Source: Verrucomicrobiia bacterium
GTDB lineage: Bacteria > Verrucomicrobiota > Verrucomicrobiia > Limisphaerales > JADLHS01
Assembly: GCA_011525685.1 (NCBI GenBank)
Contig: WYBW01000124.1
Coordinates: forward strand, 62,001-126,000
Direction: 5' to 3'
DNA: 64,000 nt
A program made the position numbers and the translations under genes. Below the pieces are notes generated by a model, which was not told the DNA's origin, made no database searches, and was given only the letters and a program-made list of their open reading frames with translations. This document shows, piece by piece, positions 13,996 to 39,030 of the stretch (the stretch's first letter is position 1; every line of letters begins with the position of its first letter).

Positions 13996-14208
13996 GGGCG
14001 CATCTCATTTTCTTGCAGGGGGCGCCGAGGCGATGCCGTAGCGCGGACTTCCAGTCTGCCGGGTCGCGGATTGCCAATCCGCAAACGCGGCGAATTCCTG
14101 GCCTGCCACGCCGTGCCTGGGCCCGCCGACTGGAAGTCGGCGATACCGCAGGTGGGGAAACCTGCGCTACGCCAGGAATGCCTGCCTGCAATCAACTGAG
14201 ATGCGCCC
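13996..14208. mobile_element. 213-bp non-autonomous transposable element (MITE-like), copy A
   Basis: Ends are imperfect terminal inverted repeats starting GGGCGCATCTCA on the left and ending TGAGATGCGCCC on the right; similarity continues to TTGCAGG inside. It is flanked by TTTCTTGCT (13987-13995) and TTTGTTGCT (14209-14217), a 9-bp target duplication with one mismatch. The core, 14038-14170, is a string of hairpins between GTAGCGCGG and CTGCGCTAC. Copy B at 34168-34380 is the reverse complement, the same length and nearly identical. It codes for no plausible protein; the frame running through it on the minus strand is repeat translation. The gap 13869-14307 holds only this element and the promoter of the next gene. 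Confidence 0.85.
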
Positions 14209-14307
14209 TTTGTTGCTGGAAACCAGCCTCCGCGCTTGTCATTTGCCGGTCCAGCGGGTATTTGCATCGGGTATCAACACGTAACAACCAGACCAGTAGA
14301 ACGCACC

Positions 14308-30111: not shown

Positions 30112-30322
30112 TGCCGGAAGCGGTGCGGTCCGGTGTTCTGTTTCCACGAAGCCCGCGAGCCAAACCAAACCGCCAACGGGCAGGTCTCGCTTGTATGTTC
30201 AACCGCCTTGCTTCCTCACTGTAAGGACTAACTCTGCGCCTTGGATCGGCCTGCCAGTGCCCAGCTCCATTTGCAGGGGGCGCCTCTTGACCGCACCACC
30301 ATTGAGCAGGTAACTGCTAACT

Positions 30323-30437
30323 GTAGCGCAGGTTTCCCAACCTGCGGTATCGCCGATTTCCAATCGGCTGGCTGTGCGAAGTAACGCAGTCTGCGGGTAG
30401 GAAACCCGCGATACCGCAGACTGGAAGTCTGCGCTAC
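30323..30437. repeat. Hairpin-array core module (GTAGCGCAG...CTGCGCTAC), copy C
   Basis: 115 bp with inverted ends GTAGCGCAG and CTGCGCTAC. Inside is a row of small hairpins such as GCAGGTTTCCCAACCTGC and GCCGATTTCCAATCGGC, and a final GCAGACTGGAAGTCTGC. It is the same core as in the 213-bp elements. A decayed outer arm may remain on the left (TTGCAGGGGGCGCC near 30274) and on the right (AAGATGCGCTC near 30448). The whole 489-bp gap 30112-30600 holds this module and the rpsP promoter region; I see no gene. Confidence 0.75.
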
Positions 30438-30600
30438 GGTGGTTCCAAGAAGATGCGCTCATTCGCAGATTTGCAGGTCGAGCCTAAAACAGGACTTGCA
30501 AAGCCGGTCGAGGTTGCTAGTCTCTGCCTCCCTTTTCGGGGACAACCAATCGGTGCGCGGCTCGAAAGACCGGTCGCGGACCTTGTTTAGAAGCAATTTT

Positions 30601-33747: not shown

Positions 33748-34068
33748 TCACTGGGCCGGCGGCGCGGCGGGAGGCGGTGGGGCGAGTTTGAGCACATCGG
33801 CCCGCATCTCCTTGCCCGGCTTGAACTTCACCACGCAACGCTGCGGAATGGGCACGTCTGTTTCCGGGGCATTGGGATTGCGCCCGATGCGCGCTTTGCG
33901 AACCTTGACCTCAAAGACGCCGAAGTTGCGTAGCTCCACCTTGTCGCCTTTGGCCAGCGCCTCGGCGATGTAATCCAGCGTCTTCTGAACCACGTCCAGA
34001 ACCTGCTGCTGAACCAGCCCCGTTTCGTTGCTAATGCGAATGACCAGGTCCCGCTTTGTCAGTGTCAT
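33748..34068 (-). CDS. HU/IHF family DNA-binding protein
   Basis: 106 residues. MTLTKRDLVIRISNETGL, the dimer helices, GDKVELRNFGVFEVK, then the DNA-binding arm KARIGRNPNAPETDVPIP, and FKPGKEMRADVLKL. It is slightly longer than normal HU because of an Ala/Pro tail. RNPNAPETDVPIP is more IHF-like than HU-like. A nucleoid protein that bends DNA. It lies upstream of hisS on the same strand, with MITE copy B just beyond its start. Confidence 0.93.
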   Translation of the reverse strand: MTLTKRDLVIRISNETGLVQQQVLDVVQKTLDYIAEALAKGDKVELRNFGVFEVKVRKARIGRNPNAPETDVPIPQRCVVKFKPGKEMRADVLKLAPPPPAAPPAQ

Positions 34069-34167
34069 AGGGTTAGGGGGTTAGCGTTTATGTTGGTCTT
34101 GCCGGACGATCTGTATAACTCCTTTGTCCCCAGCGGTCAAGCAAGGAAATCGGGCGGTTGTCTGGCA

Positions 34168-34380
34168 GGGCGCATCTCAGTTTATTGCAGGCGGGCATTC
34201 CTGGCGTAGCGCAGGTTTCCCAACCTGCGGTATCGCCGACTTCCAGTCGGCCGGCCCACGCACGGCGTGGCAGGCCAGGAATTCGCCGCGTTTGCGGATT
34301 GGAAATCCGCGACCCGGCAGACTGGAGGTCTGCGCTACGGCATCGCCTCGGCGCTCCCTGCAAGAAAATGAGATGCGCCC
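34168..34380. mobile_element. 213-bp non-autonomous transposable element (MITE-like), copy B
   Basis: Reverse-complement twin of the element at 13996-14208, the same length to the base and with only scattered mismatches. Terminal inverted repeats begin GGGCGCATCTCAGTTTATTG on the left and end ATGAGATGCGCCC on the right. It is flanked by a perfect 9-bp direct repeat TGTCTGGCA (34159-34167 and 34381-34389). The inner hairpin core runs 34206-34338 between GTAGCGCAG and CTGCGCTAC. The gap 34069-34422 contains nothing else I can recognise. Confidence 0.9.
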
Positions 34381-34422
34381 TGTCTGGCAAGAACCACAGC
34401 CCGAACCGGCCTCGCGCCCGCG

Positions 34423-38105: not shown

Positions 38106-39030
38106 ATGCCCCGCCTCTCCCTCGCCAAACTCGAACGCCATCTCTACTCCGCCTCCGTCCGCTCGTCGAAAACGATCCCGGCGTCCTCGACCGCTGGGTG
38201 GACGCCATCGCCGACGCCGTGGAGGACGACGACCAGGCCGGCCCGACCTTCGATCCGTTCAGTCACAAACTCGTCCGCCGCTCCATGAGCGATTACCTCG
38301 AGCGCATCGCCACCGCCAAGGCCGACATCGCCCGGCTCAAGGGCGAGAAAGAAGCCTTCGAGCAGAGCAACGCACCCGACGATGCCGATGAGGAGGAACT
38401 GGCCGGCTGAAATTACGCCAAAGACCTCGAACGCCAGATGCGCGAACTCAAGGCGGAGAAAAAGGACGCGCGCAAGGAGCTCGCCAAATTGGAAAAGCAG
38501 GCCGCCCGCGCCGTAGCGCAGACTTCCAAGTCTGCTGTATCGCAGGTTTCCCAACCTGCGACGCGTGCGAAAAAGGGGCGCGTTCGGTGGGCGGACGGTC
38601 TGCCGATTTGGAAATCGGCGATACGGCAGGTTTGGAAACCTGCGCTACGCTCCGGACGCAACTCCAGCCCGTGCTCGACCAACTGGCCGCATTCGAGGCC
38701 GCCCTCCGGCCCTACGAACAGACCAAGGCACAACTCGCCGAGGCCCGCGCCCGTTTCCGCACGCTCACCGACGAGTTTGTGGATGAACTCAAGCGGCGCT
38801 GCGGCGGGATGAACGACGACCAGAAACGCGCCCTCGTCCTCGAACTCTCCGCGCAGGACGTGCAGGCCGGCCTCGCCGCCGCCGCCGCCGAGAAACGCCA
38901 GGAACTCGACCGCTTTCTCGAAGGGCTGTGGGACAAGTATCGGGTGACGTTGACGGACTTACGAAATCAGCGCGTCACGCTTGAGCGTTGTTTGGACGAC
39001 TTCCTGAGGGACCTGAACTATGCGCGTTGA
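38106..39030 (+). pseudogene. hsdM: Dead type I restriction-modification methyltransferase gene (hsdM)
   Basis: Three scars. (1) The HsdM-like N-terminus MPRLSLAKLERHLYSA (from 38106) is followed, after a frame change, by the extreme C-terminal region (DRWVDAIADAVEDDDQAG, FDPFSHKLVRRSMSDYLERI), so the catalytic methylase core with its NPPF motif is deleted. (2) A TGA at 38408-38410 sits where the family has Trp (EELAAWNYAKDLERQ-like). (3) A 136-bp hairpin-array module (38513-38648) is inserted, and the reading resumes in another frame (LRTQLQPVLDQLAAFEAAL...LWDKYRVTLTDL...DLNYAR). It overlaps the hsdS start by 11 bp, as in live operons. Confidence 0.85.
38513..38648. repeat. Hairpin-array core module, copy D, inserted in the dead hsdM gene
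   Basis: 136 bp between GTAGCGCAG and CTGCGCTAC with inner hairpins GCAGACTTCCAAGTCTGC, GCAGGTTTCCCAACCTGC, GCCGATTTGGAAATCGGC and GCAGGTTTGGAAACCTGC. No 9-bp target duplication is apparent at its borders and the outer arms seen in copies A and B are missing. Its presence in a coding frame shows it moves or is copied. Confidence 0.8.

Follow-up and report, generated by a model that had tools for sequence, protein, structure and literature searches.

The window analysed here, a whole stretch of 64,000 nucleotides, contains on its minus strand a gene for an HU/IHF-type DNA-binding protein and, just upstream of the predicted promoter of that gene, a 213-bp element that we call MITE-A (Table 1). 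An earlier sequence-only reading had placed the element and the two flanking copies of TGTCTGGCA at exactly these coordinates, and the 9-bp direct repeat is indeed perfect and brackets the element to the base. The inverted ends it described are likewise real; their length had been quoted as 12 bp and is actually 24 bp with two mismatches (GGGCGCATCTCAGTTTATTGCAGG / GGGCGCATCTCATTTTCTTGCAGG). The termini read GGGC...GCCC and thereby show the conserved terminal C/G of p-MULT 4 elements. Short, bounded by terminal inverted repeats and devoid of a transposase ORF, the 213-bp element qualifies as a MITE. The array of hairpins in its interior is supported by folding (z = -8.5 for the whole element as RNA and -9.9 as DNA; z = -5.8 for the core by itself), and an Rfam search with MITE-A gave no match.

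Table 1. Positions of MITE-A, its parts and neighbouring features in the 64-kb window.
Feature	Position	Strand	Details
MITE-A, second copy	13996..14208	-	target-site duplication TTTCTTGCT/TTTGTTGCT; same 64-kb window
MITE-B	30278..30460	+	183 bp; different ISKra4-like ends (GGGCGCATCTTG...ACCACC type); REPIN core
HU/IHF-type DNA-binding protein gene	33748..34068	-	PF00216; downstream of predicted targeted promoter
Predicted -10 box	34112..34117	-	TATACA; 17-bp spacer
Predicted -35 box of targeted promoter	34135..34140	-	TTGACC; first base 27 nt past element end
Target-site duplication, left copy	34159..34167	.	TGTCTGGCA; perfect 9 bp
MITE-A, full-length copy	34168..34380	+	213 bp; from sequence and genome copies
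Left terminal inverted repeat	34168..34191	+	GGGCGCATCTCAGTTTATTGCAGG, 24 bp; also found on full-length ISKra4-family IS
REPIN-like core	34206..34338	+	133 bp; two inverted GTAG-tagged REPs, two inner hairpins (GTAG...CTAC)
Core hairpin 1	34210..34229	+	CGCAGGTTTCCCAACCTGCG; preceded by tag GTAG (34206-34209)
Core hairpin 2	34235..34251	+	GCCGACTTCCAGTCGGC
Core hairpin 3	34294..34310	+	GCGGATTGGAAATCCGC
Core hairpin 4 with its inverted tag	34317..34338	-	GCAGACTGGAGGTCTGC...CTAC
Right terminal inverted repeat	34357..34380	-	GGGCGCATCTCATTTTCTTGCAGG, 24 bp; also found on full-length ISKra4-family IS
Target-site duplication, right copy	34381..34389	.	TGTCTGGCA; perfect 9 bp
Stand-alone REPIN (GTAG...CTAC)	38513..38648	-	within window; no transposon ends

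Together with its duplication MITE-A measures 222 bp (74 codons), and three of its frames are open. Such a unit lengthens spurious ORFs, and gene callers may falsely extend the N-termini of neighbouring genes. In-frame insertion into genes was considered and rejected: 9.5% of shuffled sequences have at least three open frames as well, and in those reading frames that were tested Pfam domains begin downstream of the element, which places the copies upstream of genes.

The host is a bacterium of the Verrucomicrobia, and its assembly is a 6.73-Mb draft in 199 contigs. A whole-genome search with the 213-bp sequence, proposed earlier as a check, returned about 40 full-length copies with identities of 92-97%; more than 50 dispersed copies were found altogether, and 53 full-length copies were extracted and examined, 51 of them with both flanks. 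Further copies lacking target duplications had been named as evidence against transposition; almost every copy has such a duplication, which is a perfect 9-mer in 27/51 copies and has at most one mismatch in 40/51. When flanks were re-paired at random, perfect duplications numbered 0.83 on average and five at most. Exact duplications are 9 bp long in 27 copies, 8 bp in three and never longer. The genome contains 111 occurrences of the 12-bp end versus one of the reversed pattern used as control, and numerous contigs begin or end within the MITE-A repeat. Individual copies differ from the consensus at about 3 to 28 positions, and target duplications persist even in divergent copies, so the family spread either over an extended period or repeatedly.

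Two kinds of unusual copies were also seen. Direct tandem dimers, 8-10 bp apart, occur at two places (L143/L228, G000:C42:1-327; L226, G000:C55:16140-16489), and the spacer of the C55 dimer, CATGCGGTC, matches in reverse complement the target duplication of another copy (G000:C71:17738-17949). These dimers may be left over from an intermediate, circular or dimeric, that carried donor flank, or may have been created by the assembly. An 80-bp derivative (L058, 1433-1512) combines a single REP hairpin with two left-type ends and apparently arose by internal rearrangement.

Sites without the element were sought in 1.0 Mb of sequence of the single congener (G011). Both flanks are syntenic there for three insertion sites, and the element is present in none of the three intergenic regions, the opposite of what would have been expected had relatives shared it at the same place. 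The intergenic DNA at these sites is too diverged to give base-exact pre-insertion junctions. For the window copy, a base-exact empty site was sought in the same congener, in which synteny is lost to the right of the copy.

A full-length insertion sequence with the same terminal sequence, another of the proposed checks, was found in G009, a species of the host's family (C365:9935-11434; JALOTT010000324.1, MAG Prado240). This 1,500-bp IS carries the 24-bp ends of MITE-A at both edges; its own two ends are identical over 28 bp, a perfect 9-bp target-site duplication (AACCTGATC) lies on each side, and one protein of 482 aa is encoded. The protein scores 208.5 bits against NF033572 (NCBIfam, ISKra4 family), passes the cut-off of 205 and is an ISKra4-family (Mutator-like DDE) transposase. 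Only the 24-bp ends match between the IS and MITE-A; no internal sequence is common to the two. Common ends, 9-bp duplications and an ISKra4-family transposase together identify MITE-A as an ISKra4-derived MITE. The original description of a non-autonomous, transposing inverted-repeat element with a 9-bp duplication is thus supported both by the genome copies and by an IS with the same ends. The exact 24-bp end is present in 15/320 genomes of the order, in 14/118 genera, and this patchy spread suggests horizontal movement. The claim that a gene-less element depends on a transposase encoded elsewhere is correct in principle; in the host draft assembly, however, neither a match to the 482-aa ISKra4-family protein nor one to the family profile was found. 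Either the MITE-A copies are orphaned in the host, or the IS sits in an assembly gap.

Two results go beyond the sequence-only reading, namely the promoter-phased insertion and the REPIN identity of the core. For the former, flanks were scanned outward from the element ends for a -35/-10 pair, and the best matches clustered at one position. The TTG of the -35 box begins exactly 27 nt past the element end in 31/54 copies, whereas other offsets average 1.9 copies and never exceed 6 (binomial P ~2e-28), and the TA of the -10 box falls at offset 50-51 (A at offset 51 in 21/31). With a weight matrix (promoter score of at least 4, offset 26-28, one side of the element) a promoter-like pair is detected in 41/54 copies versus 0-5 at other offsets. 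Of these TTGs, 24 lie beyond the left end of the element and seven beyond the right (p = 0.003). Beside the second copy in the window, the predicted promoter TTGTCA (14236-14241) N17 TATTTG (14259-14264) reads into a PEP-hydrolase-like gene. The phasing is also found in an independent test set. It comprises 26 flanks beside elements that share these ends, almost all of them in other species of the order, and the promoter pair is at offset 26-28 in 12/26 flanks versus 0-1 at other offsets. Several full-length ISKra4-type ISs are promoter-phased too; the nearest one, the IS of G009, is not itself positioned at a promoter. An ORF follows 21/24 predicted promoters versus an also high 33/45 in the background (p = 0.23), and an association of predicted promoters with downstream ORFs was therefore rejected. 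Our data show MITE-A insertions upstream of predicted sigma70-type promoters, at a single fixed distance from them. Relative to the expected transcription start, the duplication lies ~54-62 bp upstream, which we take to be around the upstream edge of the polymerase alpha-subunit contacts. For the ISKra4 group the -35 box has been reported at 13-17 bp from the junction (PMC3942029), a range outside which MITE-A falls with its 27 nt (26-28); if both studies count alike, its -35 box lies ~10 bp further out, close to a full turn of the helix.

How the promoter is sensed is a question of its own. The transposase may read it as DNA alone, RNA polymerase having no role, which we regard as possible if somewhat doubtful. 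A fixed distance is expected under this account as well; the -10 signal argues that a long span, the entire promoter, is recognised or required, and does not separate naked from polymerase-bound DNA. Very little probability, by comparison, goes to the view that the association is survival bias, with intergenic insertions persisting and promoters being intergenic. Most copies do lie upstream of genes, as such a bias predicts; it should, however, spread the distances, and the signal appears only at 27 +/- 1 and not at neighbouring offsets, here and in other genomes.

The second result concerns the interior of the element. The sequence-only reading had rightly noticed a hairpin array and called it unusual for a MITE; what it missed is that the array is explained as a captured REPIN. 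In an alignment of the core with stand-alone REPINs the similarity begins at GTAG and stops at CTAC, and the same four-hairpin architecture is found in related genomes without ISKra4-type ends. Apart from the stand-alone unit in the window, further units occur in the host genome (L175, L180, L199 and others). GTAG-tagged palindromes are known, and passages of one published study attribute them to RAYT transposases and report them from the PVC superphylum (PMC3733652). The Y1 transposase family has eight matches in the host genome. One of them, a RAYT-like gene (G000:C1, locus L174, 1093-1836), reaches 30.8 bits with PF01797 (cut-off 23) and 74.7 bits with the RAYT model NF047646, just under the cut-off of 80. 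In the tagged-hairpin table, GTAGCGCAGACTTCCAGTCTGC / GTAGCGCAGGTTTCCAACCTGC units like the REPs of the core stand on either side of this gene, and these matching REPs assign the MITE-A core to its REPIN type. MITE-A is thus a composite that unites two transposition systems. As a precursor, an 80-bp MITE lacking the REPIN was sought, and none was found. Three more Y1 transposase genes (L168, L172, L173) are each flanked by their own distinct tagged hairpins (GTAGCCCACGGC..., GTGGGACAGGC..., GTAGGACAGGC...), which suggests that several RAYT/REP pairs coexist in one genome.

The presence of a RAYT-like gene flanked by core-type REPs might invite the view that the RAYT (HUH) transposase that handles the core, and not a DDE transposase, moves the whole element. 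This is highly improbable, since the 9-bp duplications lie exactly at the ISKra4-type ends, unlike the outcome of HUH/Y1 transposition, and stand-alone REPINs terminate at GTAG/CTAC and not at the 24-bp ends. To our knowledge, HUH/Y1 transposition (IS200/IS605 family) creates no target duplications. A plain REP/BIME array, terminator or attenuator with coincidental flanking 9-mers would fit a genuine REP-type hairpin array beside a gene promoter, and is by now refuted for practical purposes by ~53 copies with exact common ends, by perfect duplications of differing sequence in 27/51 of them and by ends common to a full-length IS.

We therefore consider it highly probable that MITE-A is an ISKra4-group MITE (p-MULT 4, Mutator-like), mobilised in trans, inserted next to promoters and carrying a REPIN core from the host's pool. 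As the host draft genome contains no ISKra4 transposase, the enzyme that moved the copies is one we infer: an ISKra4-type transposase, now missing from the assembly, would have recognised the 24-bp ends in trans. Insertion would have taken place just upstream of promoters, probably through sensing of promoter DNA or of bound RNA polymerase, and at such positions would be mild for the host. The core would derive from the host's RAYT-mobilised REPIN pool: a RAYT may have inserted a REPIN into a smaller MITE, or transposon ends may have arisen to the left and right of a REPIN. The composite would then have been amplified by the DDE transposase.

MITE-A is not the only element of its kind. MITE-B is a second, older ISKra4-type MITE family, whose window copy has a degraded target-site duplication (ATTTGCAGG/ATTCGCAGA) and a core spacer that differs from that of MITE-A. 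Copies on other contigs (L248, L253, L254, L255, L257, L258, L194) include some with a perfect or one-mismatch 9-bp duplication. At a further locus (L192, about 1409-1561) one MITE-A end and one MITE-B-like end surround a REPIN core, a hybrid that probably formed by recombination through the REPIN. Other genomes of the host's family harbour MITEs with ISKra4-type ends as well, and their hairpin cores are quite different: a 183-bp family with one-mismatch 9-bp duplications in G006 (L087, L220), a family in G011 (L216, L218, L230, L232) whose core sequence is repeated ~35 times in that genome, and a 217-bp element with no clear duplication in G002 (L219). Whatever the reason, hairpin cores recur with ISKra4-type ends. 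The hairpin core might be selected cargo, with ISKra4-type ends repeatedly recruiting host-specific hairpin arrays and the element acting as a mobile, promoter-addressed regulatory boundary. We think this unlikely; it draws on the observation that cores differ among four genomes belonging to a single bacterial family and on the second REPIN-carrying family in the host. If true, arrays placed 27 bp upstream of promoters would be ready-made insulators against upstream read-through that leave the promoter intact.

In MITE-A a DDE Mutator-like and a HUH/RAYT transposition system, unrelated to each other, meet in a single small element. Its insertion is base-exact relative to predicted promoters across dozens of natural insertions in one genome, which makes promoter sensing by a bacterial transposase directly testable. 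The elements could also act as natural promoter markers in a phylum with few mapped promoters.

Like the classical bacterial MITEs (NEMIS, RUP, ERIC, MITEAba12), MITE-A is short and non-coding and has IS-derived ends and target duplications. We know of no classical bacterial MITE that is promoter-phased or carries a REPIN, and our literature searches for promoter-phased or REPIN-carrying MITEs found none. Mutator-like superfamily elements have inverted repeats of 18-39 bp and direct repeats of 8-9 bp (PMC3942029). With the ISKra4 group, p-MULT 4 (Guerillot et al. 2014, PMC3942029), MITE-A shares the transposase family (NF033572), near-identical left and right inverted repeats, direct repeats of 8-9 bp and insertion upstream of promoters, with the promoter on either side of the element. 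Unlike the ISKra4 ISs described there, it has no transposase gene, keeps the -35 box at 27 nt instead of 13-17 bp and contains a REPIN core. MITEs are nowhere mentioned in the paper according to a word search. Insertion upstream of sigmaA promoters was reported for some members of the group and not all (PMC3942029), so promoter targeting is not a defining character. As targeting is already published for this transposase group, the 27-nt distance is a variant of a known property. With REPIN/RAYT systems (PMC3116915, PMC3733652) MITE-A has in common the GTAG...CTAC inverted pair, the hairpins and a RAYT-like gene with the same flanking repeats, and passages of these studies describe terrae (Verrucomicrobia) as enriched in GTAG-tagged REPs. 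A further parallel is offered by the GTAG-15 dimers of Anabaena variabilis, in which REP dimers are nested in a larger palindrome and empty palindromes were not found; unlike for MITE-A, the passage on them mentions no target duplications, parental IS or promoter phasing (PMC3733652). In contrast to known REPINs (PMC3116915, PMC3733652), the REPIN of MITE-A lies within the ends of a DDE transposon and is duplicated with them.
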